From a virus: a DNA stretch of 40,157 bases. The translations under genes were made by a program, and so were the position numbers. The notes beneath the pieces were generated by a model that had not been told where the DNA came from, searched no databases, and worked only from the letters and a program-made list of their open reading frames with translations. Shown one piece after another: positions 1,666-40,157 of this stretch. The DNA lies in IMG/VR virus record IMGVR_UViG_3300023179_000232, positions 1-40,157 of that record; one strand, written 5' to 3'. Position 1 is the first letter of the stretch, and every line of letters begins with the position of its first letter.

Positions 1666-1724
1666 GCATTGACGATAACCCGCGCAAGTCAAAGCGCATC
1701 ACGCCGCGCCAAAGTCTCCAATGA
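1662..1724 (+). CDS. 20-codon minigene linking two overlapping genes
   Basis: A 20-residue ORF (MSIDDNPRKSKRITPRQSLQ) whose ATG overlaps the previous TGA (ATGA at 1662) and whose TGA overlaps the next ATG (ATGA at 1721). It bridges the two flanking genes exactly, with no spare base. It is either a genuine basic micropeptide or merely a translational-coupling bridge that carries ribosomes to the metalloprotease gene. The perfect double overlap is the only evidence. Confidence 0.4.
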   Translation: MSIDDNPRKSKRITPRQSLQ

Positions 1725-2011
1725 GCCGCCGCACCCCTACCAAGCGCGTTTCCATCGACGGCAAGCCTTGGCGGATCAAGATCCAGCGCCCGCCAGCCCG
1801 CGAGTCCTACGACGGCCTGTGCGTCAAGGACGACCGGACAATCTACATCCACCCCGACGCCATCGGCCACCGCGGCATCGAACTGGCCTGCCATGAGATT
1901 GTGCATGCCCGCCTTTTCGACTTGGACGAGGAATGCGTGGACGAGATCGGGCGCTTGGTCAGCGAGGTCTGCAACTGGCTGGCGCGGCAAAACGACGGAG
2001 TCATCGGGTGA
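1721..2011 (+). CDS. HExxH mini-metallopeptidase
   Basis: A 96-residue protein with the zinc-metallopeptidase motif H58-E59-I-V-H62 followed by an acidic helix (DLDEECVDEIG) in which E71 or E75 could be the third metal ligand. The preceding TIYIHP strand and GHRGIELACHE helix match the layout of small SprT-like or ImmA/IrrE-like proteases. In other phages ImmA-type proteins cleave repressors, and SprT-type proteins cut DNA-bound proteins. Which applies here is unknown. It is translationally coupled through the 20-codon minigene. No signal peptide is seen, so it is probably cytoplasmic. Confidence 0.65.
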   Translation: MSRRTPTKRVSIDGKPWRIKIQRPPARESYDGLCVKDDRTIYIHPDAIGHRGIELACHEIVHARLFDLDEECVDEIGRLVSEVCNWLARQNDGVIG

Positions 2012-5198: not shown

Positions 5199-7910
5199 AT
5201 GGCCAATCTCCTCGTCACCGCCCTCAATGCAGGCGAGTTAAGTCCATACATGGACGCCCGCACGGACGTCGAAAAATACCGCTCCGGTTGCCGCACGCTG
5301 GAAAACATGGTCGTCCTGCCCTACGGAGGCGTTTACCGGCGCAGCGGCACCGAGTATCTGGGCGAAGCCAAAAACAGCAACCGGCGCTGCCGCTTGATCG
5401 GGTTCAACTTTTCCACGACCACCCGCTTTGTCTTGGAGTTTGGCCACCTTTATGTGCGCGTCTGGGGCAACGACTCTCCGGTCATGCACCCCGCCGGAGC
5501 CGCGTGGGCGACCGGCACAGCCTATGCCATTGGCGACATCGTGACCAGTGGCGGCACAACGTATTACGCCGTCACCGCCCACACAAGCGCCGCGGCCTTT
5601 GCCACCGACCTTTCTGCCGGTCGCTGGTATGCCCAACCGGCCAGCGGCGTCTTGGAATTTCCGTCGCCCTATCAAGAAAGCGAACTGCGCGAACTGCAAT
5701 ATGTGCAAGTCAATGACATCATGTATATCGCGCACGCCAACCACGCGCCGCGCAAGCTGTCCCGTCTGGCAGACGACGACTGGACGCTGGTGCCGGTCGA
5801 GTTTAAGTGGCCGCCGCTTATTGACAACGCCAACACTGAGGAAATCACGCTCAACGCCAGCGCCTTCAGAGGCAACATCACCGTTTCGGCCAAAGACAAG
5901 GGCGGAAGCGCACGCAACAACACGTTTTTAAGCGGCCATGTCGGCTCGCACTGGGCCATCGAATACGCCCGAAAAAGCAGCAGCTTGACGCTCACCATTG
6001 GAGGAAACTTTGTGTCTGACTTGGAGTTGGACATTGGAGGCCAGTGGACGCTTACCACGGTCGGAACATGGCTTGGAACGCTGCGCCTGTTGCGCTTTCC
6101 AGACAGCGTCGTTGATAACTTCGGCTATTACCAAATTGGATCGGCCACCAGATCCGGCACAGCGGCCACCATCACGTTGGCCAACCACGGGGTCAATACC
6201 AACGATTTGCTTTATGTCAACTACGTCCAAAACGTGGGGATGGGCGGATTGGGCGCGGCATTGGTTTCTGCCACGCGGACGGGGCCGGACACCTTCACCA
6301 TTCCTGTCAGCAACACAGGCTCCACAAGCGTTGCCACGTTTTTCTTCCAGAACATCACGCGCATGGAGGTTATCCGAGAATTTAAAAGCGAAACAACGGC
6401 GCGAAACATTATCGCGACTGGAGAAGCTCTGACGCGAGGAGTCTACAAGCTGCAAGTGCTGGATTATGTTTCCTCCACCAACGCCAAAGCGTTTTTTGAA
6501 TCTTCCGATTTCACCAACGGGGGATCTTTTGTCATCAACTCAATCGTCAGCGGAGGCGCAAGCGCCAACGCAACGGTCAAAACTTTTCTTGGCACACGGG
6601 TGCCTCCAGACACTTTGCTGTGGAGCGAGGCCGCATTCTCCGGCGTGCGCGGCTACCCGCGGGCCGTGGCCATCCACGAACAGAGACTTTGCTTCGGCGG
6701 CACCGCCCACCAGCCCAACACTGTTTGGTGCAGCAAAGTAGACGACTTTGAAAACTTCCAACTGGGGAGCAGCGCGGACGACGGGTTGCAATTCACCGTG
6801 GCCTCGTCCGAAGGCAACCGCATCGAATGGATGTTCAGCCAACAGCGACTTATGATCGGCACCAGCGGCGACGAGTGGACAATCGGCGGGGCCAACAGCG
6901 GCGAGGCATTCAGCGCGACCAACGTGCAGGCCCAGAAGCAGTCGTCTTTCGGCTCCAAGACTATGCGGGCCATCCTGCTCAACGACGTTTTGCTTTTCGT
7001 CCAGCGCCGCGGGCGCAAGGTGCGAGAACTGACCTACAGTTTTGAAAGAGACGGATGGGTTGCGCCGGATCTGACTGTTTTGTCCGAGCATGTGACCCAA
7101 GGCGAACTGGTCGAATTGGCCTTCCAGCAGCAGCCCGACGCCATCCTCTGGGCGGTGCGGGGCGATGGTCAACTGGTTGGCATGAGTTACGAGCGCGACC
7201 AACAAGTTGTCGCATGGCACCGGCACACGACCGACGGGGAATTTGAGTCCGTCGCCACCGTCTACGGACTCTCCGGCGCGGACGACGAGGTCTGGATGGT
7301 GGTCAAGCGCACCATCAACGGGCAGACCAAACGCTACATTGAACGCTTTAAGGCCGACAACCGCGCCAAGTTTGAGGCCCAGACCAAGGAGGATTGGTGG
7401 TATCTGGATTGCGCCAAACGCTATTCCGGCACCGCCACGGCCACCATCACCGGACTGTCCCACTTGGAAGGCAAGACCGTCAGCGTCTTGGCCAACGGGG
7501 CCGTCCAGCCCGATGAGACGGTCGCCGGAGGCCAGATCACCCTCGACAAGACCTACACCAAGGTGCTGGCCGGTCTGCCCTACACCTCGACCATCCTTCC
7601 CATGAAGTTCGACTTTGATCTGCGCGACGGCCCGACCCGCGGGCGCAAAAAGCGCATCAACCGTATCGAGGTCAGCCTTTTCAAATCTTTGGGCGGGGAG
7701 GCCAGCACCAATGGCAGCAACTGGCTTTGGATCTACCCGCGGGACTTTGACGACCCGATGGACGCCAGCCCGCCGCCTTTTTCCGGCGATGCCGAGGTCG
7801 TCGTGGCGGGCGATTACTCCGACGACAGCGACATCTATTTGCGCCAGCGCCTGCCTTACCCGTTCACCGTCCGCGCCCTTGTCGTAAAGCTCGACGCATA
7901 CGGGGATTGA
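5199..7910 (+). CDS. Tail tubular protein B (gp12-like nozzle)
   Basis: A 903-residue protein that would form the tail nozzle through which DNA leaves the virion. The N-terminus has the hallmark LNAGELSPYMDARTDVEKYRSG and NMVVLPYGGVYRRSGTEYLG, followed by FNFSTTTRFVLEFG. The middle contains GYPRAVAIHEQRLCFGGT and the GSSADDGLQFTVASSEGN / IGTSGDEWTIGG propeller-like segment characteristic of this family. The C-terminal part (VSLFKSLGG, then PYPFTVRALVVKLDAYGD) is β-rich. The start ATG is close behind the adaptor stop. Codons 230-400 are more AT-rich than the rest, suggesting a replaced variable module. Confidence 0.85.
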   Translation: MANLLVTALNAGELSPYMDARTDVEKYRSGCRTLENMVVLPYGGVYRRSGTEYLGEAKNSNRRCRLIGFNFSTTTRFVLEFGHLYVRVWGNDSPVMHPAGAAWATGTAYAIGDIVTSGGTTYYAVTAHTSAAAFATDLSAGRWYAQPASGVLEFPSPYQESELRELQYVQVNDIMYIAHANHAPRKLSRLADDDWTLVPVEFKWPPLIDNANTEEITLNASAFRGNITVSAKDKGGSARNNTFLSGHVGSHWAIEYARKSSSLTLTIGGNFVSDLELDIGGQWTLTTVGTWLGTLRLLRFPDSVVDNFGYYQIGSATRSGTAATITLANHGVNTNDLLYVNYVQNVGMGGLGAALVSATRTGPDTFTIPVSNTGSTSVATFFFQNITRMEVIREFKSETTARNIIATGEALTRGVYKLQVLDYVSSTNAKAFFESSDFTNGGSFVINSIVSGGASANATVKTFLGTRVPPDTLLWSEAAFSGVRGYPRAVAIHEQRLCFGGTAHQPNTVWCSKVDDFENFQLGSSADDGLQFTVASSEGNRIEWMFSQQRLMIGTSGDEWTIGGANSGEAFSATNVQAQKQSSFGSKTMRAILLNDVLLFVQRRGRKVRELTYSFERDGWVAPDLTVLSEHVTQGELVELAFQQQPDAILWAVRGDGQLVGMSYERDQQVVAWHRHTTDGEFESVATVYGLSGADDEVWMVVKRTINGQTKRYIERFKADNRAKFEAQTKEDWWYLDCAKRYSGTATATITGLSHLEGKTVSVLANGAVQPDETVAGGQITLDKTYTKVLAGLPYTSTILPMKFDFDLRDGPTRGRKKRINRIEVSLFKSLGGEASTNGSNWLWIYPRDFDDPMDASPPPFSGDAEVVVAGDYSDDSDIYLRQRLPYPFTVRALVVKLDAYGD

Positions 7911-8352: not shown

Positions 8353-9015
8353 ATGCCGCAAATCGCCGTCCCTCTTGCCATTACCGCCGCGGTGTCCAGC
8401 TTGGCCTCCGCAGGAATGTCTTTCTACGGGCAGCAGCAGCAAGCCGCCGCCGCCGAGCGTTTGGCCAACTACAACTACCAAGTGCAGTTGCAGCAGATGC
8501 AGATGCAGGCGCAAATGCAGAAGATTGCCGCCGAGCAGCAATACCAAGCGGGCATGCAGAACGCCACCGCGATGCAGAACGAAGGACTGCGCGTGGAACA
8601 GGAGGCCCGCGAACGGGCCAAGCGTATGCGGGCCGAAAACGAGCGCCTCTTGGGCCAGCAGCGGGCGCAGTTCGGCAAGGCGGGCGTGACCAGCGCCGGT
8701 TCGCCTTTGGCCGTCATGGCCGAATCGGCGGGCCTCATGGAACTCGCCGTGGGCGACGAACTCTACAAGGCCGACTTGGAGCGCAGCGCCTACTTTCGCA
8801 AGGCCGAGGTCGAGAAGTGGCAGGCCGGATATTCTTTGGTGGACAAAGCCGCCGCCGACTACAACGCGGCCAGCGCCGCCTACCGCACCGCGCCGATCCT
8901 TTTGGAAGGCCAGAACACCGCCAGCGCCCTGCGCGTGAACAGCTACGGGTCGCTCATTTCCGGCGTTTCCCAAGCCGCAGGCATTGGGGCGAACTACAAC
9001 TTCAAGTCCCGCTAA
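8353..9015 (+). CDS. Internal virion protein (gp14-like)
   Basis: A 220-residue protein of the gp14 type, which in T7 is ejected and forms the outer-membrane part of the DNA channel. It has a hydrophobic N-terminus (VPLAITAAVSSLASAGMSFYG). A long Gln/Met/Ala-rich coiled coil (residues about 25-100, QLQQMQMQAQMQKIAAEQQ) follows. Then comes the family signature QRAQFGKAGVTSAGSPLAVMAE, and a Gly-rich C-terminus (SLISGVSQAAGIGANYN). Position between gp13-like and gp15-like genes agrees. It starts two bases after the preceding stop. Confidence 0.8.
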   Translation: MPQIAVPLAITAAVSSLASAGMSFYGQQQQAAAAERLANYNYQVQLQQMQMQAQMQKIAAEQQYQAGMQNATAMQNEGLRVEQEARERAKRMRAENERLLGQQRAQFGKAGVTSAGSPLAVMAESAGLMELAVGDELYKADLERSAYFRKAEVEKWQAGYSLVDKAAADYNAASAAYRTAPILLEGQNTASALRVNSYGSLISGVSQAAGIGANYNFKSR

Positions 9016-9017
9016 TC

Positions 9018-11030
9018 ATGGCCAACATCCCGCTCGTCCAAATCCCCAACGCCCCGCAGACCGGCTCGACCGCCGTGCCGCTGCCGGTGGGGGCCATCCG
9101 CACGCCCGACGTCGAACTCATGGGCATGATCGACGACGCCAGCTACATGGCCGTGGGCCGCGCCTACGAGAATCTGGGCAACGCCGGTCAGCAAGCGGCC
9201 AACGTCTTGGGCGACTTTTCGCTGTCGATGGCCCGCGCCACCGACGAGGCCAACCTTGCCGCCGCCGACCGCATCAAGACCGACATGCTCTCAAAGTTCG
9301 ACGCCGAGGTAGCCACCAAGCCGGAGAGCGAGTGGAACGCCATTTGGGAAAACAACTACGCGCCCAAGCTGCGCGACCAAGTGACCTCGCTTCGCATGAC
9401 CACCCGCGACGGACTCAACCGGCGCGACATCTGGCTGGCCAACACCGAGAACGCGGTGAAGGCGCAAGTTTTCACCAGCGCCAACAAAGCCATCGTCCAG
9501 CGCGGCAAGCAGGAGATCACCAACTACATCGACCGCGCTATGGGCGAGGGTCGCTGGGAGGACGCGATGGCCGGATACAAACGCGGGGCAGCAGCGGGTT
9601 TTTGGACGCCGGAGGACGCCGAGGCGGGCATGATCAAGATCGAAGAGGAGCAAAAGGTTTCCACAATGACCCAAGCCATCCAGCAAAACCCCGCCCAGTG
9701 GCGCAAGGAACTGGCCAAGTATCAGAAAGAGGGCAAGAACCCCCACAAGCTGCGCCCCGAACAGGTGCTGCAATTCCGGCGCATGGCCGAGGGCAACCAC
9801 GCCCAGCTTCTCGACGACCTCAACAACCAAATGCTCAACCGCTTGGAAACCGAGAGCGCCGCCATCACCAACGACCAGATCGAAGAATTTTACAACCGGC
9901 CCGACGTCGATGCTCCGCGGGAACTCATCAACAAGATGAAGGAATACCGCGACTTCAAGTATGCCGACACGCCGGAAGGCCAAGCCGAGCAGGCCACGCG
10001 CTTCAGTGACCTTTGGCAGAAAATTTTCAGCTACGACGCGGAGAAGGACATCAGCATGGCCGATCCCGACACACACAAGCGCGAATACCAGCGCCTCATC
10101 AGCGAGATCGTCACGACCGCGCCGGAGGGTCAGCGCAAGCCATTCATGGACACGCTTGACAAGATGGTCAGCGATGCCAACCAAGGCGTCAAAAGCCGCG
10201 CCGACGAGATCACCAAGGGGCTGACCGACTTGACCGGCAAGCTCGCTTCATGGGGTCAACTGGGCGACGACGGCGGGTGGAAGGAAGTGACCAAGGACGG
10301 CAAGACCGAGCGCGTGCCGAAAGACCCCGCCATGCAACTGCAAGTGCAGACCAAGCGTCTGGAGATCACCAACGACATCCGCGCCATGCTGCGCGAGAAC
10401 CCCGACCTCACCGAGGAGCAGGCAATGGAACGGTTCAAGGGCATTTTGGAAAACCGCTTGGACGGCGGGGCGCTGTTCATGCAGCAGCCCGACGAGGAGG
10501 GCTGGTGGGATACCTTTAAGTCCTTCATTCCGGCAGCGGGAGCCGCGGCTTTGCCCGCGCCATTGCAGGCTCCGGCCAGCATGATGTTCCGCGGGGCCAA
10601 GGCACCGGCTTCGATCCGCCACAACAACGCCGGAGCCATGTGGTATGTCGGCGGATGGCAGAAAAAATTCGGAGCCGAGTTTGGTCAGAACCTCAACGAC
10701 GGTCTGGGCCAAGGCAACCAGATCGCCAGCTTCCCCACGCCCGTGCATGGGGCCGCGGCGCTCATGTATCAGCTTGACCGCCCCATCTACCGCAACAGCA
10801 GCGTGCGCCAAGCCATTGCCAAATGGAGCGGGGGCAACAACGTATCCAGCTACCTTTCGGTGCTGAAATCGGCAGGGTTTAGTCCAAACCAAAAAGTGGC
10901 CGACATCATGTCCTCGCCGGATCAAGCCATTGCGTTTGCCAAGGCGATGGCCCGCCACGAAGCCGGAACAGATTACCCGATGAATGACGACCAGTGGCAG
11001 CAAGCCTTCGCCATGTTCCAGCAGGCATGA
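9018..11030 (+). CDS. Internal core protein (gp15-like) with C-terminal peptidoglycan-hydrolase-like domain
   Basis: A 670-residue protein, mostly charged helix (residues 1-520), as expected of a core protein ejected into the periplasm. A Pro/Ala-rich linker (about 510-530, PAAGAAALPAPLQAPA) leads to a distinct C-terminal domain beginning SIRHNNAGAMWYVGGWQ. This domain has a RxNNAG/RxNNPG-type motif, then FPTPVHGAAALMYQLD and AIAKWSGGNNVSSYL. That pattern matches lysozyme-like or transglycosylase-like domains carried by many virion proteins to open the cell wall during injection. In T7 itself such activity sits in gp16, so the fusion to gp15 is notable. The TGA overlaps the next ATG (ATGA at 11027). 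A one-mismatch copy of the dispersed motif lies in the C-terminal coding part. Confidence 0.7.
   Translation: MANIPLVQIPNAPQTGSTAVPLPVGAIRTPDVELMGMIDDASYMAVGRAYENLGNAGQQAANVLGDFSLSMARATDEANLAAADRIKTDMLSKFDAEVATKPESEWNAIWENNYAPKLRDQVTSLRMTTRDGLNRRDIWLANTENAVKAQVFTSANKAIVQRGKQEITNYIDRAMGEGRWEDAMAGYKRGAAAGFWTPEDAEAGMIKIEEEQKVSTMTQAIQQNPAQWRKELAKYQKEGKNPHKLRPEQVLQFRRMAEGNHAQLLDDLNNQMLNRLETESAAITNDQIEEFYNRPDVDAPRELINKMKEYRDFKYADTPEGQAEQATRFSDLWQKIFSYDAEKDISMADPDTHKREYQRLISEIVTTAPEGQRKPFMDTLDKMVSDANQGVKSRADEITKGLTDLTGKLASWGQLGDDGGWKEVTKDGKTERVPKDPAMQLQVQTKRLEITNDIRAMLRENPDLTEEQAMERFKGILENRLDGGALFMQQPDEEGWWDTFKSFIPAAGAAALPAPLQAPASMMFRGAKAPASIRHNNAGAMWYVGGWQKKFGAEFGQNLNDGLGQGNQIASFPTPVHGAAALMYQLDRPIYRNSSVRQAIAKWSGGNNVSSYLSVLKSAGFSPNQKVADIMSSPDQAIAFAKAMARHEAGTDYPMNDDQWQQAFAMFQQA
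10876..10889 (+). promoter_or_regulatory. Dispersed motif site 4 (intragenic; 13/14)
   Basis: GGTTTAGTCCAAAC differs from the consensus at one base. It lies inside the gp15-like gene in the codons for AGFSPNQ, about 140 bases before the next gene starts. Being coding, it may be a chance match, or a site reachable from the 11027 start. Confidence 0.4.
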
Positions 11031-14000
11031 TCAGCTTCGCCGCCACCCCGCAGTCCAAGGAAGCGCAGCAGGCGCGGGCCTACACCGACCCCAGCGCCGG
11101 AGCGCCGCCCTCACGCCGCAGCGGCTCCAACGCGCCCTACGTTGATCGCGACCACTGGAACAAGGTTTTCACCGACCAGACCTACTTCGACTCCATCGCC
11201 AAGCAGAAGGGCATGGCCGAGGGCGCAAAGGTCAGCCTGCATGGCGACGACTACGTCTACCGGCAGGCCATGATCGGCTACTTGGCCGACACTCGCAACG
11301 TGCCGCTCGACGACATGCGGTCGATCTTTGACGCCGAGAAAGACAGCTTCGCCCAGAAGGTCTTGGGCAAACAGACGGCCAGCGCCCGCGAAATGTTTGA
11401 ATGGCAGAAGAGCAAGTTTGAGCGCGACAACGAGAAACAGGCCGCGGCACGCCAGATCCTCAACAACGTCGCGCAGCGGGCCATCACCGACTTCGCCACC
11501 GGAGGCGACACGCCTTTTGTCGAGAGCGTGGCCAAGGACATCGATGCCGCGGGCGACATGTTCAGCGACGAGGAAAAGTCCCTGCTCTGGCAGCAAGCCG
11601 AGGAGAACGACATCAAGCTCCGCGCCACCCAGATGCGCTTTGCGCCGGAGGCCAAGTTCATTTTCGACGCGCTGCGTCAGACGACCGGAGAGGGCGCGGG
11701 CTTTGGCGCTCCCGACATGCGCGAGATGGCCACCCGCTTTGCCAAGCTGCCCGACAACCAGCGCCGCGCCATCTACGAACTGGCAGGCAGCTTTGCCCAA
11801 CTCAACCAGACCGACAAGGGGTTCTGGTATCAGTTGGCCGAATCCCTTGGCCGCGGGGCCAGCGACATTGTCGAGCGCGTGCCGCGCAACATGAAAGAAC
11901 AGGCGCTCCGCAACGACCTTCGCTTGCTGGAAGGCGACCAGCCCGTCTTTGCCGGAACCGGCGTGCAGGGCGTGGCCTATAGCGCCTTCGGCACCAAGGC
12001 GCTGACACCGGAAGAACGCGAGCAGGCCGCGGACAAGGTGCGCGGCGAACTGGGCGTCTTCAAGGTCGAGCGCGAATTGCGCGACTTGGCCGAGCGGGTC
12101 ATTGATCCGATCAAGACCGTCACCGTCCTGCCGGAAATCGTCGAGGAAGGCTTATACGGTGCCGCCCGCAGCCTTCCCTATACCGCCGTCGCCGCGGTTC
12201 CCTACGCGGGCGCTCCCGCGGTCGCCGCCGCCCTCTACAGCAGCAACTACGACCGGATCATGCTGGAGTATCCCGACATCGATCCCGACAAGGCCGCGCT
12301 TCTCGCCGCCATCTCCGCGCCTATCGAAGCGGGACTGGAGCGCATGAAGGTCAACACCATCGTTGGCCGGTTGCCGTTTTTTGGAGGTTTAGTCAAACGC
12401 TTCCAGCATCCCAACCAGCGCAACATCACCCGCATCGCCATCGGCGGGGCAGGGGTTTTGGCCGAGCAAAACGCGCAGGAGATTTTGCAAAACGCCACCT
12501 TCCCCTTTGTCCAAATGATCGGGGCCGCGCTCGACCAAGACATCCCCGAATACAAGCTCGACTTGGCCAGCATGCCGCGGGACTTGGCGGTGCAGTTTGT
12601 CGCCCTTCTCCCGCTCTCCCTCATGGGTATCGGTGCGCTGTCCTACCGCGAAATCAGCCGCGGAGAAAACTATCTGAAAGAAAAGCCGACGCTGATGAAA
12701 GTGTTGAGCGAAGAGGCTGCTGACCGCGTTTTGGGCGCAACTACGCCGGAAGAAGCGCGGGCCATCTTCCGCGAAGAATACGCCAAGCGCACACCCGAAG
12801 AGGTCAAAGCCGCCGCCCAGCGCGTCGTCGATGAAGTCCTCGCCCTGCGCGAGAAGTCCAATCCTGCCGCCCTGCCGCGTCTGGAGAAGCAGGGTGCCGA
12901 CTACGTTGTCCTCTCGCCGGAAGGCAAGGAACTGGCCCGCTCGACCGACCAGACCGCCGCCGAGCAGGCGCTTGTTTCCGCCCGCCGCGAGACGGTGCAA
13001 CGCGAAATGCGCGATGTTCACACCGGCATTAACGAAGCCGTCGCCTTTATCCAGAAGGTCAACGAGGCCCGCCAGCGCGGCGAGGACGTCGCCAAGATCA
13101 TCCGCGAGGAAGCACCCCGCACGCTGCTCGACGACTACGAGGCCAACCCCACGCAGGAAAACCTCGACCGGCTCTTTGAGACTGTCCGCGCCTTCGGGCA
13201 GGAGATCAACGAACCCGCCGAACTGGCCAACTTCCCCGTCACCGGCAGCAACCAAGGCGCACTGCGCGAGGGTATTTGGCGCTCCATCATCCGCATCAAC
13301 GAGGGCGCGGACGGCACCATCGTCATGCGTGAGTTCGCCCAAGACAATCTCAAGCGGGCGATTGCCGAGGGCCGCACCACGTTGGACTTCGTCCGGCAAC
13401 AACTCAACGACATCCTGCCGCAGATCGACAGCGACCGCATGGAGCGCCAGCTACGCACCGAGACGGACACCGACGTCATTGAAGCCTTCTCCGACATTGC
13501 CTTGGCCTACTTCCGCGGCAACATCCGCGACGAGCAAATTCCCGCGGGCCTGCGCGGATTCATCCGGCGCTTGGCCATCTTCACCCGCGACATCTTCCGC
13601 CGCGCCTACAACCTCGCCCGCCTCCGCGCCGAAGGGAAACTCGACCGCGACTTTGAGGCGCTCTTGGCCGAAGCCGTCGGCGTTGACCAGCAGGCGCTGG
13701 TAGACCGCTCCCGCGAAAAGACCGCGCAGGAGGTTGCGCCGGAGACGGCGAATTATTCGATTGGCGTCAGTTCGCAACAAGACGCCGACTACCTCGCAGC
13801 CGTCGAGCGCGGCGACATGGAAACGGCGCAGCGGATGGTGGATGAGGCGGCGAAGGCGGCTGGGTATGATATTGGGCCGGTATATCATGGGTCGCCGGAA
13901 ATAAGCATAACCACATTCAACACAACAAGCCCGCCTCGCAGAACTGGCGATTCCTCGGATGCTCAGTTGGGGGCTTTTTTCACAGATGACATCCCTGCCA

Positions 14001-17000
14001 CGAGACAATTTAGAAGTATAAATGAAATAAACCCATTCACGGGGGAGTTAACACAAAAACCGCTAGGCAGGCTATACTCTGTTTTTCTAAAGGGGACACT
14101 AGCCAGACTGAATAATTCATTAGTCAGCGAGCTTGCTGACCTCGTAGGTTATCCGTCCGAAGGTTATTGGGATAGAGACCCGTGGAGAAATGTGTCGCAG
14201 ATTACAAATCATGCGGGTGCTGAGAGTGTCCGTGCGGCATTGCTTGGCATGGGCTTCAACGGAGCCTATGTCAAGACAAGTGTTGATTCTGTCACGAAAT
14301 CAAAATCCGCATCTGGTTACAAAAAGATAACTCAGTATGTCGTCTTCAACCCCACCCAAATCAAATCCGCCGACCCCGTCACCTACGACGCCTCCGGCAA
14401 CATCATCCCGCTCTCCCAGCGTTTCGATGCGACGACGGCGAATATCAATTACTCCATCGTCCGCTCCGTCGATCACTTCAAAAACGACACGCGCTTCGAC
14501 AAGCTCGTCAAGGACGGGCGCGTGTTTACCGGCGTGGATGTCAACGACTTCACCGACATGCACATCCTGCTGCATTCGCCGGACAATGCGTTTGCCGGAA
14601 CGATCCAGCTAAAGGACGGCAGCGACATCACCGGCAAGGGCGGCGTCTACTATCCGGCGCTCTATGCCGACAAGAACTACTTCTGGGCCTCGACCGAAGC
14701 GATGGTCATGCGGACGGCCAACCACCTCAACGAGATCGGGGCCAAGAACGGCGGCAGGATTCTCATGGGCCTTGTCTCCGCGCCGGTCGAGAAACTGTTT
14801 TCCTCGACATCGATGGCCACGGGCGTCGTCAAGTTCCTCAACGCGCTGACCACCGATTCCAAGGCGGGCCTGCGTAAGAGCGACCTCAACGCCATGCTGG
14901 TTACCGCCAGCAAGGTTGAGGTCATCGTTCCGAGCAAGACCAAGGAGTCCAAGAAAACCTTCAAGCTCAAGCTCAAGGCCAGCGATAGCTACGCGACCAA
15001 CCTCGCCAAGATCGACCAGCTACTGGAACCCTCCGGCTCCATCTTCCAAGTCCGCAAGGCGTTTGTGGAGTCGCTGGCCGAGCAAGTCTCCAAGCACCTC
15101 AACGCCAAGCCCGAAAGCGCCAAGTATGTCGCGGGCATTCTGGCCGACGCCGAGAACAAGCACGCCAAGAGCGCCATCAAGCGCGGCACGCTATCCAAGG
15201 CGTCCTTCCTGCAAGGGCTGGGCAACATGCTCACCGAACCATTCCTGCGCGACTTCCAAGAGCATGGCAGCGGCAAGATTTACGCCATCGTCGAGGTCGA
15301 GGGAGAGGTCAAGGGCATCGCCACGACCGAGCATGAATCGTATCCGGCGACCATCGTGCCGGTTAACAAAAAGTCCAAGGTCAAGCTGCACGTTTTGAAA
15401 GAGGCCGTCGATTGGCAGGACGTCGTCGGCAAGGAGACGGGCCAATACGCCACGCCGCAGGAGCGGCTCAACTTGCTGCCTACATCCGGCATGTCTTCGA
15501 CTTCGCTCAAGGTGCTGGGCGTCAAGGCGGGCAGCAGTGCGGCTCCAATTAACTATTCTATCCTTGCCCGCTACGAGGGCATGCCGAGCGTCGTCGTCGA
15601 GGGCGGGCGTCCTTACTCGCCCATCGTCCGCGACCTGTTGCAGCGCCGCGCTGCGGGCGAAGACATTCCGCGGGCGGTCATCGACAAAGCCATCAACGAC
15701 AACTTTCCGGCGCAGCTTGTCGAGGTGCCTCGCTCCGTAGCGGAATTGCCAGACCGCGCAACAATTGACGACGCCATTGACAAGGGTCAGCGCGACAAGC
15801 GGGTTGATGTCTCGACAATCGAAGCCGGTGAAAAGGTTGCCATCCGGCAAGATGTTCCGGCCATGACGCGCAAGGGCGTTGGCGTTGTCACCGTAAAGAG
15901 CAAGGCTGGAAACTCCTACGAAGCCGCCGTTCGCATCACCGAACCAGAGTTTATCCTCAACGAAAAGAAGTCGCTGCGTATTGCGATTGGCGAGGCCAAG
16001 GGGCCGCACATTGTGATCAACGGCAAGTGGGCCGCGGATCAATCGATGCCCGACGACTTGGAGACTTGGACGCAAGTGGGCTACAACCCAGACCGCCACA
16101 GCTTCTACTACGACCGCGCCACGATGCAGCAAATTGTCGGAGGCTCCGAGGCGTATCAGATTGGCAACACCGTTTTCGTCAAAGACGCGCAGTATGGCGA
16201 CGGCCAGATTTCCGACATTTCCTACTCCATCTCCACCCAGTCCGAAATCGACCGCGTCGGCGCGGCGTTGAACCGGCTCGACCGCGACCCGCTGGAGCGC
16301 GTCAAAATCTACGAGAAGGCGCAGGAGAAGTTCCTCCGCGTCATGGCCGACAACCGCGACATGCTCGCGGCGATGGAAGGCGGCGACCTCTCGCAGATGC
16401 GCCGCACGCAAATCCTTCAAGCCTTGGGCGAACTCGACGGCATCCTTTCGGTGCTGCCTCCGGAAATCCGCAGCAAGATCGGCGGCTACACGCAACTGGC
16501 CAAGGTCGATCCGATGGACGTCTTCAAGGGCGACCAGAAGGTCAGCGAGGTCAGCGGCATGCAGGGGGCCATCATTTCCGCGTGGATGCGCGAGGGGCTG
16601 AACATTGGCGAGGCGCAAAAGCAAACCGAACTGCCCGACGGATACCGCGCCGAGCGCAACATGGAACCGGCCCGCGCCGACCGCGCCATTGCCGACGTTT
16701 TCATCGGTCGCCTCGACCGGATCAACCGCGAACTGGAGCGGTTCCTGCGCGACGAATACAATGACGCAGCGGTCGAACTCTTCAAGCGGGCCAAGCCGCA
16801 GCGCAGCGGGGCAGGGGAGAAGCCCAAGGGCAAGCTGGGCGCGGACGTCCACACTCTGTTTGACACACTGAAAGAGGCCACCGAGTGGAGCGCGGAGAAG
16901 GCGCAGGCAATGGCCGATACGGAGCTAATGCGTGCAGAAAGCGGCGAACTCGACCCATACGAAGCCAACCACGCCATGATGACCGCGCACTTGTTGCCGC

Positions 17001-19168
17001 TCTTTGCCGACTGGCAAAATGCCGACAGCACCCAGCGGGCATCCGCGGTCGCCGCTGGTCTTGATGTGCTGAACAGGGCATACAAGGGCGAGCAGCAGCG
17101 CCGGTTGGCCGAGCGCCAAAAACGTGGCTTTGACCGCACCGACTTGTCCGACGACGCCGGAGTCACGGCCAGCGACGACAAGGCGCGGCAGGACAAGCTG
17201 AAGTCCGAGAACAGTCTGCCGAGCGAGTTTGAATCCGGCATGCTCAACCTCGTCAACTTCGACCAACTGCTGCGCTACATTTTTGGCGACGACAGCAAGG
17301 TCGCCCGCGAACTATCCGACCGGCAGCGCAAGGCCGACAATGCCAAGAGCGACGACATTGCCGCGATGTCCGACGAGTGGGCCGCGTTCCTGTCCCGTCT
17401 GGGCGGCGGCGAGATGCAGGGGCAGCAGTTGCTATTTGAACTCTCGCGCATGGACGAGGAGATCGACGGCGTCTCCTACAGCCAAAACCAATTGGTCGCC
17501 ATCACCATGATGTGGATGCAGCCCAAGGGTCGCCAGCACATGGAGGGCTTTTTTGACAGCGACGGCAATCCGTCGGGCAACTGGCACTACAACCAAGACT
17601 TCGTCAACAAGGCCGAGAAGCTCTTGCGCCCAGAGGCCAAGGCAATCCGGCAATACCTCCTCGACAAATACGAAGCGGAATACGAGGCCATCAACAGGGT
17701 CTACCGCAAAGTTTACGGGATGAACCTTCCCAAGAACCAGTTCTACTCCCCGCTGGTTGTCGAAAGCATCAACGCGCCGGAACAAGCTGGCGTCGATCCG
17801 GTGACCGGAGCGGTCTTTACCGCGGGAGCCAACTCGCCCAGCGCCCTGCGTTCCCGCGGCGGGGCCATTGCCCAGCCGGTCTTCCGCGATGCGGTGCAGA
17901 CCTACTTCGGCCACATGCTCCAGATGGCGCACTGGAAAGCCTACGCGCAATTCAACAGCGAAGTGTCCGGCATCTTGGGTCACCGCGACACACGCATGGT
18001 CGTCAAGGGCAAGGCGGGCGAGCAAGCCGCAACGGTGATGAACAACTGGATGCAATACTTCCGGCAAGGCGGAAACAAAGACGCGGCCAACCACTTGGCT
18101 ATTAACAAGTGGATCAACCGGATCACCGGAAACTTTGCCGCCATCTCGCTTTTCGGGCGCGTCTCGACCTTGGCCCTACAGGTCACCCAGCTTGGCGCGG
18201 CGTCGGCCAAGATGCCGGTGGGCGCTTACCTCTCGCGCTTCGGCAAGCTCATGTCCGGTCGCTTGGGATGGACGACCGCGCTGGAGAGCGACTACATCCA
18301 GCGCCGCATCAAGGACATGCCGCCCGCGGTCGCCTTGGCCATGCAGGGATTGCAGGCCAAAAGGCCCAGCCAAATCCGCAATGCCGCCCGCTGGCTTGGC
18401 CAGCACTTGAGCGGATTCGACGGGTTCTTCACCGCAGGCACCTACGCCATCGTCTACGACTACCAACTCACCCAAGCCCGCCAGAACGGCATGGGCGGGC
18501 AGGAGGCCGCGGATTACGCCCGCGAGGCCACCGAGCGCATCGTGGACGAGATCGCCCAGCCGACGCGGGCCGGTGCGCGGTCGATCTTTGAGATCAACAG
18601 CACCAACCCCGTGGCGCGGGCCGTGTGGGCCTTTTCTTCGGAGGCTCGCAAAAACATGGGCCTGCTCATGTATAGCGGGGCCAAGGGCGGCACGCGCAAC
18701 TTCGGCAAGGCGCTGACCTACGTTTTACTGCTCAACGGTCTGGTGGGCATTGTCATCCGCAACGCCTTCCGCGACATGCGCGACGAGGACGACGAGGAGA
18801 TTTTCGACGAGAAAAACTGGGGCTGGAAACGTCTGGCCGCGCAGTTCATTAGCGACCCGATCTACGGTATCCCCGTGGTTGGCGAAACTATCGAAACCGG
18901 CGTCTACGCCGCGTTTGGCGTCTACAAGCCCTCCGGCCCTCTCTTCGATGTGGCCCGCGGAGTGCCTGCCGCCACGCGCATGGTGACCAAGTATCCGATG
19001 GAACTATTGGAGGGAGATGCCGAGTTCCGCGACATCGTGGCCGACGTCAACCGCATTCTTGGCACCGCCGGTTTGTTTAACAGCACCATCGCCGGAGCCG
19101 CATCCATCAGCAACTTGGTCAAAGACGCATTTGAGGTGGGCGACAACGCGCTGACCAACGACGAGTAA
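11027..19168 (+). CDS. Giant polyvalent virion protein (gp16 position) with ADP-ribosyltransferase-like module
   Basis: A 2713-residue protein directly after the gp15-like gene, the slot of T7 gp16, and probably injected with DNA. Residues 1-908 are helical with hydrophobic stretches near 390-410 (AAVPYAGAPAVAAALY) and 520-540 (VQFVALLPLSLMGIGAL). Four (N/S)YSI junctions at 909, 1141, 1509 and 1732 delimit modules. Residues about 948-1130 look like an ART-PolyVal ADP-ribosyltransferase: VYHGSPEI, then GAFFTDD, VFLKGTLARL, GFNGAYV and YVVFNPTQIKSAD. Residues 1145-1508 are unrecognised. Residues 1513-1731 resemble a large-polyvalent-protein-associated domain (TWTQVGYNPDRHSFYYDR). The C-terminal 980 residues include membrane-like helices (TYVLLLNGLVGIVI). 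I chose the start at 11027 because of the ATGA overlap. Such proteins are thought to protect entering DNA or modify host targets; the targets here are unknown. Confidence 0.8.
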   Translation: MISFAATPQSKEAQQARAYTDPSAGAPPSRRSGSNAPYVDRDHWNKVFTDQTYFDSIAKQKGMAEGAKVSLHGDDYVYRQAMIGYLADTRNVPLDDMRSIFDAEKDSFAQKVLGKQTASAREMFEWQKSKFERDNEKQAAARQILNNVAQRAITDFATGGDTPFVESVAKDIDAAGDMFSDEEKSLLWQQAEENDIKLRATQMRFAPEAKFIFDALRQTTGEGAGFGAPDMREMATRFAKLPDNQRRAIYELAGSFAQLNQTDKGFWYQLAESLGRGASDIVERVPRNMKEQALRNDLRLLEGDQPVFAGTGVQGVAYSAFGTKALTPEEREQAADKVRGELGVFKVERELRDLAERVIDPIKTVTVLPEIVEEGLYGAARSLPYTAVAAVPYAGAPAVAAALYSSNYDRIMLEYPDIDPDKAALLAAISAPIEAGLERMKVNTIVGRLPFFGGLVKRFQHPNQRNITRIAIGGAGVLAEQNAQEILQNATFPFVQMIGAALDQDIPEYKLDLASMPRDLAVQFVALLPLSLMGIGALSYREISRGENYLKEKPTLMKVLSEEAADRVLGATTPEEARAIFREEYAKRTPEEVKAAAQRVVDEVLALREKSNPAALPRLEKQGADYVVLSPEGKELARSTDQTAAEQALVSARRETVQREMRDVHTGINEAVAFIQKVNEARQRGEDVAKIIREEAPRTLLDDYEANPTQENLDRLFETVRAFGQEINEPAELANFPVTGSNQGALREGIWRSIIRINEGADGTIVMREFAQDNLKRAIAEGRTTLDFVRQQLNDILPQIDSDRMERQLRTETDTDVIEAFSDIALAYFRGNIRDEQIPAGLRGFIRRLAIFTRDIFRRAYNLARLRAEGKLDRDFEALLAEAVGVDQQALVDRSREKTAQEVAPETANYSIGVSSQQDADYLAAVERGDMETAQRMVDEAAKAAGYDIGPVYHGSPEISITTFNTTSPPRRTGDSSDAQLGAFFTDDIPATRQFRSINEINPFTGELTQKPLGRLYSVFLKGTLARLNNSLVSELADLVGYPSEGYWDRDPWRNVSQITNHAGAESVRAALLGMGFNGAYVKTSVDSVTKSKSASGYKKITQYVVFNPTQIKSADPVTYDASGNIIPLSQRFDATTANINYSIVRSVDHFKNDTRFDKLVKDGRVFTGVDVNDFTDMHILLHSPDNAFAGTIQLKDGSDITGKGGVYYPALYADKNYFWASTEAMVMRTANHLNEIGAKNGGRILMGLVSAPVEKLFSSTSMATGVVKFLNALTTDSKAGLRKSDLNAMLVTASKVEVIVPSKTKESKKTFKLKLKASDSYATNLAKIDQLLEPSGSIFQVRKAFVESLAEQVSKHLNAKPESAKYVAGILADAENKHAKSAIKRGTLSKASFLQGLGNMLTEPFLRDFQEHGSGKIYAIVEVEGEVKGIATTEHESYPATIVPVNKKSKVKLHVLKEAVDWQDVVGKETGQYATPQERLNLLPTSGMSSTSLKVLGVKAGSSAAPINYSILARYEGMPSVVVEGGRPYSPIVRDLLQRRAAGEDIPRAVIDKAINDNFPAQLVEVPRSVAELPDRATIDDAIDKGQRDKRVDVSTIEAGEKVAIRQDVPAMTRKGVGVVTVKSKAGNSYEAAVRITEPEFILNEKKSLRIAIGEAKGPHIVINGKWAADQSMPDDLETWTQVGYNPDRHSFYYDRATMQQIVGGSEAYQIGNTVFVKDAQYGDGQISDISYSISTQSEIDRVGAALNRLDRDPLERVKIYEKAQEKFLRVMADNRDMLAAMEGGDLSQMRRTQILQALGELDGILSVLPPEIRSKIGGYTQLAKVDPMDVFKGDQKVSEVSGMQGAIISAWMREGLNIGEAQKQTELPDGYRAERNMEPARADRAIADVFIGRLDRINRELERFLRDEYNDAAVELFKRAKPQRSGAGEKPKGKLGADVHTLFDTLKEATEWSAEKAQAMADTELMRAESGELDPYEANHAMMTAHLLPLFADWQNADSTQRASAVAAGLDVLNRAYKGEQQRRLAERQKRGFDRTDLSDDAGVTASDDKARQDKLKSENSLPSEFESGMLNLVNFDQLLRYIFGDDSKVARELSDRQRKADNAKSDDIAAMSDEWAAFLSRLGGGEMQGQQLLFELSRMDEEIDGVSYSQNQLVAITMMWMQPKGRQHMEGFFDSDGNPSGNWHYNQDFVNKAEKLLRPEAKAIRQYLLDKYEAEYEAINRVYRKVYGMNLPKNQFYSPLVVESINAPEQAGVDPVTGAVFTAGANSPSALRSRGGAIAQPVFRDAVQTYFGHMLQMAHWKAYAQFNSEVSGILGHRDTRMVVKGKAGEQAATVMNNWMQYFRQGGNKDAANHLAINKWINRITGNFAAISLFGRVSTLALQVTQLGAASAKMPVGAYLSRFGKLMSGRLGWTTALESDYIQRRIKDMPPAVALAMQGLQAKRPSQIRNAARWLGQHLSGFDGFFTAGTYAIVYDYQLTQARQNGMGGQEAADYAREATERIVDEIAQPTRAGARSIFEINSTNPVARAVWAFSSEARKNMGLLMYSGAKGGTRNFGKALTYVLLLNGLVGIVIRNAFRDMRDEDDEEIFDEKNWGWKRLAAQFISDPIYGIPVVGETIETGVYAAFGVYKPSGPLFDVARGVPAATRMVTKYPMELLEGDAEFRDIVADVNRILGTAGLFNSTIAGAASISNLVKDAFEVGDNALTNDE
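12386..12399 (+). promoter_or_regulatory. Dispersed motif site 5 (intragenic; 12/14)
   Basis: GGTTTAGTCAAACG has the exact 10-bp core and encodes GLVKR within the giant protein. It lies far from any gene start, so it is either a chance coding match or, if the motif is a roadblock or stoperator, an intragenic stop site. Confidence 0.4.
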
Positions 19169-19213: not shown

Positions 19214-20251
19214 ATGGCCGTCCAGTCCGATACCTCTTCCATTAGCTACACCGGAAACAACAGCACCGTTACGACATACGCGGTGCCGTTTGTCTTCTTG
19301 GAAAACTCGCACCTTGCCGCGACGGCCAAGGTCATTGCCACCGGCGTCGAAACCGCGGTCACGCTGACCAACCACACCGGAGCCGGTAACGTCAACGGCG
19401 GCACCGTCCGCACCGCGGTCGCCGTTCCCGCGACCTCCACGCTGACCATCTTCCGCACCGTTCCGGCGACCCAGACCACGACCTACCAAGAGGGCGGCGA
19501 CTTCCCCGCGGCGTCCCATGAGCGGGCCTTGGACAAGCTGACCATGATCTCGCAGCAACTAAAGCGCGACATCACAAACGCCACTGCTACTTTTGGATTT
19601 CAAACAGTTCAGTCATTAAGTTTTGCGGCGAACGGATCTTTTGTAAAAGCGTTGTATCCGTGGGCGAAAATTGTTCGCGTGTTTGCTGTTGGAGGCGGTG
19701 GTGGTGGGGGAGGTGCCGCAACAACATCGTCCTCGCAAGTTGCGGTTGGGGGTTCTGGAAGTGGCGCTGGCGCGGGCGTTGTCATTGTGGATGTTGATGA
19801 TTTGAGCGCATCTGTGGCCATTACGGTGGGCGCTGGGGGCGCTGGCGGCGCGGCTGGAAACAACGCTGGATCGAGTGGGGGCGACAGTTCTTTTGGCTCT
19901 TTTATCACCGCCAAGGGCGGGCTTGGAGGATCGGGCGGCGCTGCCGTTACTGCTCCAGTTATTGTTAACGGAACCGCTGTTGCAACGGCGAATGTGGCGA
20001 CAACTGTCTACAGCGGAAGTCCCGCACTTCCAACCTACGCAACAGCAGCGCAAGTTATTGCTCCGGTGTCTGGATCAAGCATTGCCGGAACCGCCGTGCT
20101 TCCTAATGCAACAACGAGCGGGGCAAATGGAGCCAATGCAACTTTGTTTGGAAGCGGCGGAAGCGGAGGCTGTAATGCCGAAAATCAAGCATCGGCAAGG
20201 TCTGGAGGAAGCGGAAGCGTGGGCATAGTTATTGTGGAGGTGTTGGGCTAA
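19214..20251 (+). CDS. Tail fibre/adhesin with T7-gp17-like N-terminus and Gly-rich tip
   Basis: A 345-residue receptor-binding candidate. The N-terminal 135 residues match the T7 tail-fibre attachment domain: SYTGNNSTVTTYAVPFVFLENSHL, then FRTVPATQTTTYQEGGDFPAASHERALDKLTM. After a short linker, residues 150-345 are Gly-rich (VGGGGGGGGA, VGAGGAGGAAG, GGLGGSGG). They resemble the polyglycine-helix tips of T4-type gp38 adhesins, with small loops between Gly runs that usually set host range. The tip is visibly more AT-rich than the N-terminal domain, suggesting exchange of the receptor-binding end. The stop codon overlaps the next ATG (TAATG). Confidence 0.75.
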   Translation: MAVQSDTSSISYTGNNSTVTTYAVPFVFLENSHLAATAKVIATGVETAVTLTNHTGAGNVNGGTVRTAVAVPATSTLTIFRTVPATQTTTYQEGGDFPAASHERALDKLTMISQQLKRDITNATATFGFQTVQSLSFAANGSFVKALYPWAKIVRVFAVGGGGGGGGAATTSSSQVAVGGSGSGAGAGVVIVDVDDLSASVAITVGAGGAGGAAGNNAGSSGGDSSFGSFITAKGGLGGSGGAAVTAPVIVNGTAVATANVATTVYSGSPALPTYATAAQVIAPVSGSSIAGTAVLPNATTSGANGANATLFGSGGSGGCNAENQASARSGGSGSVGIVIVEVLG

Positions 20252-31895: not shown

Positions 31896-32008
31896 AGTTT
31901 GGCCCGCCGTGGGTGCCGAAGGAAAAGAGCGGCAACTACAACGCGCCGAAACCGGCGGCACCGCGGGTCACTGACGAACCGGCGACGGACGACGACATTC
32001 CGTTTTGA
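31733..32008 (+). CDS. Small SSB/OB-like protein
   Basis: A 91-residue protein. The stretch GAAFPRQSDNPKAPKWSG, then VKIDGKDYEISIWEQTSKSGKDFLSLKF matches the pattern of DUF736-like and single-stranded-DNA-binding-like β-barrel proteins (GxLF…PxxxGxxxxxGxxYxIsxWxkxxksGkxflSlxf). The C-terminus is acidic (TDEPATDDDIPF), typical of SSB tails that recruit partner proteins. It fits a replication helper beside the initiator-like and recombination genes. The start ATG is immediately before the conserved region. Confidence 0.65.
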   Translation: MQQYNDDNRGAAFPRQSDNPKAPKWSGPVKIDGKDYEISIWEQTSKSGKDFLSLKFGPPWVPKEKSGNYNAPKPAAPRVTDEPATDDDIPF

Positions 32009-32439
32009 TCCTGCACGAGACACAAGCAGACCGGCGCACCGAAGCGCGGATCGTCGAAGCCGTCGCCACCAAGCACGGTTTCGGCACCGCGTTTTGCTCC
32101 AAGGCTTACCCCGTGGACTCCATGTTCATGCGGGGCCGGAGGCCGGTCTGCTTTGTCGAGGCAAGGCACCGCAACAATTCCAAGGACAAGTATCCGACCT
32201 TCATGTGGTCGCTGCAAAAGTTCATCCACGCCAAACAGTTTGCGGAGGTGCTGCCGACCGTCCTGCTCGTCGAGTGGGAGGAGGGCATCTTCAGCCACCG
32301 GATCAACGGCGACCACTACGAGATCGGCTACGTCAACCGCACCGGCACGACCGGACGCACCAGCGCCGACAACGAGCCGGTCATCGAAATACCGACCGAC
32401 AAGTTCAAACAGGAAATACCGAGGGAATACGAATGGTAA
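32005..32439 (+). CDS. Small PD-(D/E)XK-nuclease-like protein
   Basis: A 144-residue protein starting at TTG, overlapping the previous TGA. RRTEARIVEAVATKHGFG, then YPVDSMFMRGRRPVCFVEARHRN, and YPTFMWSLQKFIHAKQFAEV recall a minimal restriction-endonuclease fold: an N-terminal acidic helix, D37 or D38 in the β-hairpin, E-A-R where E-x-K is usual, then a Ser/Lys-containing helix. Related short phage proteins accompany replication genes. The Lys-to-Arg change at the third catalytic position leaves activity uncertain. It overlaps the next gene by seven bases. Confidence 0.5.
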   Translation: MILHETQADRRTEARIVEAVATKHGFGTAFCSKAYPVDSMFMRGRRPVCFVEARHRNNSKDKYPTFMWSLQKFIHAKQFAEVLPTVLLVEWEEGIFSHRINGDHYEIGYVNRTGTTGRTSADNEPVIEIPTDKFKQEIPREYEW

Positions 32440-33105
32440 AGATCGACTACGCCATCCAAACATCCGAGCGCACCCGCGACCGGCTGACGCTTTGCGAAAA
32501 CTGGACGCGCCACGTTCAGAAACCCAGCACCGTCCGGTTCATCAGCGATGAGCAAGTGGGGCGAGGGGATTACTTGTCAGCCATCGACAAGACGATATTT
32601 GCCATCGACACGTTCCAAGTTCGCTACGACTGGCTCTACATCGTGGACGACGACGGCTACGTTGTTCCGCGGCGCTTGGAATTGCGACTGATCGACCTCG
32701 ACCCCGACGAGCATCATGCCATCGGCTGCGTGCAGGGCGTGCTATCCAACGAGACGCACAAGTTTCCGGCGCTGCATGGCGGGTGCGGCTACGCGCTCTC
32801 ACGCGCCACCGCGCTGGCACTGCAACAGCGGCATTGGCATGGCGAACTGGTGGCACCACCGCAGCAGCGATGCGACGGTTGCGATCAATCTGCACCTCAT
32901 GCGCGTAATACCGGAGAACGACTCCCGATTTACATGCAATGCGCCAGCGGAAGATGCGACCGAGACATTCATCGCGTGTCACAAAGCGAAACCCGAAGAC
33001 TACGCACGACTCAACAGCGCACAACCGAACATAGTTGAGGCGAGCGAAGCGAAGCCGAATAAGATAGAGTGGTTTAGGAAAAACGTGGTCAAGAGTTTAG
33101 TTTGA
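32433..33105 (+). CDS. Fringe/GT31-like glycosyltransferase, split by an apparent frameshift
   Basis: From ATG 32433 the first frame contains YDWLYIVDDDGYVVP (D72-D74, the metal/sugar-nucleotide-binding DxD) and HGGCGYALSRATAL (residues 115-127), both signatures of Fringe or β-1,3-galactosyltransferase-type enzymes. The frame then degenerates and stops at 33038. In the +1 frame the family continues from about 32848 as WWHHRSSDATVAINLHLMRVIPENDSRF, including the conserved acidic SSDAT, and ends at 33105. The shift must lie between about 32815 and 32847. It could be a true mutation, an assembly error, or +1 programmed frameshifting. Intact, it might glycosylate phage DNA, a virion protein, or host surface sugar. 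Such enzymes are unusual in phages. Confidence 0.6.
33071..33084 (+). promoter_or_regulatory. Degenerate dispersed motif (12/14)
   Basis: GGTTTAGGAAAAAC differs at two central bases. A second partial copy, AGTTTAGTTTGACC, lies at 33095-33108 just before the small-terminase gene. They may be decayed sites; support is weak. Confidence 0.3.
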
Positions 33106-39729: not shown

Positions 39730-40157
39730 ATGACAGATGCAACCACCACCGCCGCTCCCACCAGCACCACCGCGGACAGCGCCGCTGTTCCCGCGTCCAC
39801 CACACCCGCTGCTAACACCAACGTCACAACCGAAGGGACACTCCTTTCCAGTGCGCCAACCAGCGCCACCGACGCGCCCGCGCCCGAAAGCGTAGACCGG
39901 CCCGACTGGTTGCCGGAGAAGTTCTGGCGCAACGACAAGGCCGACGTCGAAAGCCTCGCCAAGTCCTACCAAGGGCTGGAGCAGCTACTGGGCAAGAAGG
40001 CCAACGCCATTGTCCCGCCCAACGAGAAGTCCACGCCGGAGGAGGTCGCCACCTACCGCAAGGCCATCGGCGTGCCGGAGTCGCCGGAGGGCTACAACCT
40101 CAAGCCGGAGCAACTGCCAGAAGGCGTCACATGGGATGACAACGTGGCCAAGAAGGC
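39730..40157 (+). CDS. Capsid assembly scaffold protein, N-terminal part (3' cut by window end)
   Basis: Start of the scaffold gene, open to the last base; it continues at position 141 of the window after the shared 126 bases. The first 60 residues are Thr/Ala/Ser/Pro-rich and probably disordered (MTDATTTAAPTSTTADSAAV), followed by RPDWLPEKFWRNDKADVESLAKSYQGLEQLLG. This conserved block, DWLPEKFW, marks scaffolds of T7-like phages. In this copy VPPNEKSTPEEVATYRKAI replaces the five-codon variant at the left tip of the window. Confidence 0.88.
   Translation, partial: MTDATTTAAPTSTTADSAAVPASTTPAANTNVTTEGTLLSSAPTSATDAPAPESVDRPDWLPEKFWRNDKADVESLAKSYQGLEQLLGKKANAIVPPNEKSTPEEVATYRKAIGVPESPEGYNLKPEQLPEGVTWDDNVAKK
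40032..40157. repeat. Terminal direct repeat, right copy (circular join)
   Basis: Identical to bases 15-140. Removing one copy joins the scaffold gene in frame and closes a genome of about 40.0 kb. Confidence 0.95.

Follow-up and report, generated by a model that had tools for sequence, protein, structure and literature searches.

Phage-specific border words separate exchangeable cassettes in a giant phage protein and are candidate protease cut sites

The window analysed here, a virus contig of 40,157 bases taken at its full length, contains an uninterrupted reading frame for a giant protein (P0001) of 2713 residues, which is divided into two cores and three internal cassettes by four copies of a short peptide word, NYSI or SYSI (Table 1). 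Comparison with related proteins strongly supports these seams as real points of module exchange. From the sequences compared, we propose that they are phage-specific recognition words placed between injected effectors that can be exchanged, and that a protease most likely cuts there; to this reading we give an even chance of being right. Polyvalent proteins as such are already known. YSI occurs nowhere else in the chain, the composition of which predicts about 0.26 YSI and 0.026 [NS]YSI. The Y-to-Y distances are 232, 368 and 223 residues, or 229, 365 and 220 once YSI itself is subtracted; the original prediction had given these module lengths and the same seam positions, and all of them were recovered on recount.

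Table 1. Coordinates of P0001, its parts and the other genes discussed.
Feature	Coordinates	Strand	Basis
96-aa HExxH protein, CHEIVHARLFDLDEE...VDE; candidate trans-acting protease, low confidence	1721..2011	+	
Internal virion protein, gp14-like	8353..9015	+	phrog_418
Gene in gp15 slot; true start probably near 9012	8817..11030	+	
P0001, giant seam-divided protein, 2713 aa	11027..19168	+	gene order, T7 gp16 slot
Core A, N-terminal, residues 1-908, clade-conserved	11027..13750	+	
End of core A, residues ~740-880; aligns with HERTH of L063, here MREFAQ	13244..13666	+	
Seam 1, NYSI, residues 909-912, AATTATTCGATT	13751..13762	+	
Cassette E, ART-PolyVal, Pfam match at residues 952-1116	13763..14446	+	
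Seam 2, NYSI, residues 1141-1144, AATTACTCCATC	14447..14458	+	
Cassette C, no assigned function	14459..15550	+	homologues in elemo phages, L198, clade members
Seam 3, NYSI, residues 1509-1512, AACTATTCTATC	15551..15562	+	
Cassette D, no assigned function	15563..16219	+	homologues in L013, L010, L039/L040
Seam 4, SYSI, residues 1732-1735, TCCTACTCCATC	16220..16231	+	
Core B, C-terminal, residues 1736-2713, clade-conserved	16232..19165	+	
Tail fibre	19214..20251	+	phrog_1640 N-terminus

Bases 15-140 of the window are repeated exactly, in direct orientation, at 40032-40157 (126 bases), so that the contig, though classed as linear, probably represents the entire genome. A podovirus block is apparent from PHROG and Pfam matches, with genes for portal (37716), scaffold (split over the contig ends), capsid (3120) and tail tubes (4590 and 5199), and the presence of an integrase (24013, minus strand), RecT and exonuclease VIII indicates a temperate phage. 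Within this block P0001 occupies the place that gp16 has in T7, preceded by the gp14-like and gp15-slot genes and followed by that for the tail fibre, and on the basis of gene order we infer that the two positions correspond. This location also suggests that P0001 is packaged in the virion and injected. Profile searches of the PDB gave no match for core A or core B. The tail-tube-B-like protein encoded at 5199-7910 contains an inserted carbohydrate-binding module (CBM_5_12, residues 102-133). Two other genes stand out: one with a metallophosphoesterase-like reading (599-1414), located between the scaffold and capsid genes and present in one of seven near relatives, and another (31899-33038) with a Fringe-like glycosyltransferase match (PF02434, E 1e-5) that is variable among relatives.

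The chain combines several unrelated domains, predicted effectors among them, as expected of a polyvalent protein. Cassette E matches the Pfam family ART-PolyVal with an E value of 4e-6 (28 bits, just short of the curated 31.2). Cassette C has a 34.6% match (residues 1152-1496) to a giant protein of a Flavobacterium elemo phage that carries the annotation 'structural protein', and this match spans the cassette almost exactly from seam to seam; its identity is about 35% with the elemo phages and 57% with L198. Relatives of cassette D are found in L013 (97% identity), L010 (77%) and L039/L040 (52-55%, with AASL(D) as the bordering word). Neither C nor D has a match in Pfam or a fold match in the PDB, and D is poorly modelled. 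In relatives the same slots are occupied by ParB-like (a weak match), GNAT and other ART domains. The original prediction that the modules differ in kind holds for the ART-like first module, through its Pfam match, and for the distinct second one, while its 'LPD-like' label for the third is unsupported, because this module has no Pfam LPD match. It had also proposed structure prediction across the seams, and in an AlphaFold2 model of residues 900-1745 all four fall in low-confidence stretches with pLDDT below 50, cassette C being well folded (pLDDT up to 96). As this model is of moderate quality (mean pLDDT 61, with 38% of residues below 50), it gives weak support to the seams being linker stretches.

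A clade of proteins sharing cores A and B was assembled by viral-contig searches, and its members were divided at [NSD]YSI, which separated about 20 families of cassettes from two families of cores. The usual layout is A, a variable cassette, C, a variable cassette and B, and cassettes E and D are also found in other slots. All 59 YSI of 17 related proteins sit between the two conserved cores. Homology breakpoints lie at most 10 residues from a seam in 113 of 210 cases (54%, compared with 9% for random positions in the region), these breakpoints being derived from overlapping protein pairs and hence not independent of one another. The junctions are exact to the codon and their halves travel separately, the left one with the upstream cassette and the right one with the downstream cassette: NLLNYSI continues as STQ, AAA, ASG, ASK or LAR, and the start of core B, YSISTQ, is preceded by SDIS, VTRS, GAQN, GVDN, AVSN, NLLN or LAAS. 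The word stays NYSI in the clade, in which the cores fall to 25-45% identity. Some members depart from this rule, as L099, L095, L096 and L019 have no seam after core A and L010 has none before cassette D. In L010 an ART cassette and cassette D are fused (residues 952-1479), a natural absence of one seam.

The original prediction had presented the seams as either cleavage sites or linker seams of exchange, and the second alternative is now strongly supported by the breakpoints, by the shuffling of cassettes and by codons that diverge under a retained peptide. Alignment, a check that it had proposed, shows that near relatives keep YSI while swapping modules. As for the contrary case that it had considered, relatives that preserve the borders without YSI, the outcome at greater distance is that the module is retained and has the local phage's word on either side; exceptions are cassette C of elemo, which has no recognisable word, and a few clade members in which one seam is missing.

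Such words are found in other giant proteins. Among 47 non-redundant giant proteins with an ART cassette, the peptide at the end of the ART is found 86 times elsewhere in the protein that carries it, where 25.6 occurrences would be expected, and the word differs from phage to phage: LFSSP in L069 (six copies), AASLD in L040 (four) and YSVR in L017 (four), which unbiased word counts also rank as top repeats, and further [YF]SLK in L045, [YF]SLS in L014, YSVLS in L079 and NYSI in the window. Since the ends of the ART cassette are recognisably homologous, the flank on its left can be set against the flank on its right. For 44 cassettes, the left flank scored on average 23.2 against its own right flank and 14.1 (sd 0.70) against those of other proteins, and none of 20,000 permutations (maximum 17.3) reached the observed value. 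In this form the test was frozen and then applied to a fresh set of 46 cassettes, drawn from GTDB genomes and from further viral contigs, with a closely similar outcome (21.5 versus 14.2, sd 0.64, maximum 17.3; the observed value was again not attained in 20,000 permutations). Together the two independent sets comprise 90 non-redundant cassettes, which come from bacterial genomes as well as viral contigs. When the conserved DI end was left out, the scores were 19.6 versus 12.2 in the first set and 17.7 versus 12.2 in the second. The effect is not universal: a shared word of three or more letters is seen in roughly half of the cassettes. The possibility that YSI is simply part of the ART fold, which typically ends in DIRYS, was rejected, because YSI also closes cassettes that are not ARTs and because the flank match survives removal of DI.

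The same cassette can be followed through a change of word. Cassette D is bordered by NYSI and SYSI in the window and by AASL and AASLD in L040 (52% identical), cassette C by NYSI on both sides in the window and by SFSV on both sides in L198 (57%), and cassette N by NYSI and SYSI in L096 and by SYAV and SFAV in L103. In L069 the Pfam domains ART, helicase and methylase, and RadC lie between LFSSP or SSPT words and none of them is interrupted. The giant protein of elemo, which has module C, shows no recognisable or repeated word, and no clear repeated word was seen in the isolate-like phages elemo and MW202426. The seam words are absent from the other ORFs of the loci examined and from the other virion genes of this genome. 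That the word is conserved as a peptide and co-varies within proteins suggests that it is recognised by something phage-specific. Searches of the open-access literature, a scope outside which many subscription papers fall, returned no description of such words.

If the words were recombination scars, formed by exchange at a short shared linker sequence and kept by copying, with no role for the protein, breakpoints would be expected exactly at the words, as is observed. The seam codons separate two situations. In the window's clade, the Y, S and I codons of different seams of one protein are identical in 152 of 282 comparisons, against 144.7 expected from the protein's own codon usage, and in L069 they are likewise at chance (23 of 75, 23.8 expected), indicating that the peptide, and not the DNA, has been retained and that it outlives DNA homology. 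Moreover, the first and last seams maintain distinct codon sets across the clade, seam 1 being encoded by AATTATTCGATT in most members and the last seam by TACTCCATC. A DNA-level repeat was therefore rejected for this clade, but not for some other phages: in L079, L017, L083, L021 and L280 the seam codons resemble one another more closely than expected from codon usage (161 of 301 overall, versus 102.4), so that recent DNA copying contributes there. L079 also has three tandem ART-type cassettes with the same word, YSVLS, between them (residues 1072-1580), and as their codons are largely shared this array is probably a recent duplication. Scars come third in our ranking and are unlikely. A somewhat better, though still rather unlikely, candidate is that the words serve as binding sites, each repeat docking a partner (a core domain, the gp14- or gp15-like proteins, the portal or a chaperone) that would space, pack or unfold the modules, either inside the head or as they pass through the tail. 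The word would then differ between phages because the partner does, and conservation at the peptide level, phage specificity and absence from other proteins would be explained as well as by cleavage; that no peptidase family, nor a prohead protease, was found in the window by Pfam and PHROGs searches also favours docking. However, no partner was found, a single site would suffice unless the modules were handled one by one, and NYSI is constant across a clade in which the cores themselves have diverged widely. Cleavage would be the most economical form of phage-specific recognition, and the seams have what is expected of a multi-site protease substrate: a repeated site, located at domain borders, in linkers, and conserved as peptide.

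The identity of a protease has been approached from three sides. Autoprocessing by a zincin metallopeptidase within the chain was proposed for polyvalent proteins generally by Iyer et al. 2017 (PMC5512222), and a few relatives do have HExxH, which L063 carries where core A ends and which L005 and L011 carry within cassettes. P0001 itself has none, 26 of 29 clade sequences, including the window and some fragments, lack it, the NYSI members among them keeping their seams, and the matching stretch of core A reads REFAQ or EEINH; the clade's giant proteins being mostly without the motif, this explanation is very improbable. Residues ~740-880 of core A could possibly be a decayed zincin, judging from the alignment; a poor AlphaFold model of residues 601-918 (pLDDT 63) gave no zincin match by Foldseek. 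Cutting by a prohead protease would predict the motif in other head proteins together with a protease gene, and neither was found within the loci examined. The PHROG 'protease' match of the ORF split over the contig ends was rejected, as this product is low-complexity and scaffold-like, lies between the portal and capsid genes and matches a family of 'unknown function' better than the one labelled 'protease'.

There is also a 96-aa protein, with the motif CHEIVH, that might act in trans as the protease reading NYSI; this is the most specific form of the cleavage proposal, and an improbable one. It is present, at 85-94% identity and with HExxH intact, in all seven near-complete NYSI relatives, where it is retained although neighbouring accessory genes vary or drop out, and it is missing from the syntenic slot of G016, the nearest relative with another word (S[YF]AV), as well as from G008, G017 and G022. 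The association with the word is, however, a single evolutionary contrast confounded by kinship, and the protein has no Pfam family and only a weak match to a PHROG of unknown function. No relative of it was found in cultured phages.

In the cleavage reading that we favour, P0001 would be a large virion-packaged protein, probably injected with the DNA, in which the four YSI separate independent effector cassettes. The reader of the word would differ from phage to phage and would most likely be a trans-acting protease that cleaves the chain at each word or beside it, either during head assembly or after entry. Cutting would free the effectors (ART, ParB-like and GNAT domains, and domains C and D) from cores A and B, which would remain with the ejection machinery, and the use of one word throughout would allow any cassette to fit any slot. 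With somewhat less confidence, the injected effectors of many unrelated tailed phages could be taken to form true polyproteins, in which each phage would have a processing word of its own and a specific protease to read it. Cassettes travelling between phages would be fitted anew, on either side, with the word of the recipient, so that the word acts as a standard connector. This bears on the question of how one giant chain yields many activities after passing through a narrow tail. Phage-specific border words make direct and cheap testing possible (terminal peptides, seam mutants), provide a sequence rule by which giant phage proteins lacking annotation could be divided into real domains and, through word co-variation, open a route to the cognate reader.

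The gp14-gp15-gp16 system of T7 shares with the window the gene order, the slot for a giant gene between gp15 and the tail fibre and a gp14-like PHROG match; it differs in that cores A and B have no sequence or profile match to solved structures. T7 gp16 is not known to be built as an array of cassettes. Polymorphic toxins likewise exchange modules at a short border that stays constant, as with the VENN motif of CdiA. MuF and CDI/Rhs toxins, composed of a constant region followed by an exchanged toxin, resemble P0001 in this respect, although P0001 has several borders per protein, internal cassettes between two cores and a word that changes with the phage.

Another giant protein, the DarB-like gp69 of phage JC1 (4515 aa, in the Bcep22-like phages), has been shown to be in the virion by mass spectrometry (PMC9144972). 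The phage polyvalent proteins described in PMC5512222 are, like P0001, very large and multidomain, are encoded among virion genes and include ART-PolyVal, and the ART, ParB-like, GNAT and RadC domains of the relatives of P0001 are found among them too; they differ in the zincin proposed for them, the motif of which P0001 lacks. Word searches of that paper brought up no repeated phage-specific linker peptide. The closest parallels for the proposed cutting are DarA of phage P1, which is cut by the prohead protease Pro (PMC12810830), and the head proteins of SPN3US, which gp245 cuts at a short motif (PMC10052503). In both, one protease acts on head-packaged proteins, recognising several sites by a short motif, as is proposed for P0001; yet the sites of prohead proteases recur in several head proteins, whereas the word of P0001 is confined to one protein, lies at the borders of its modules and varies with the phage.
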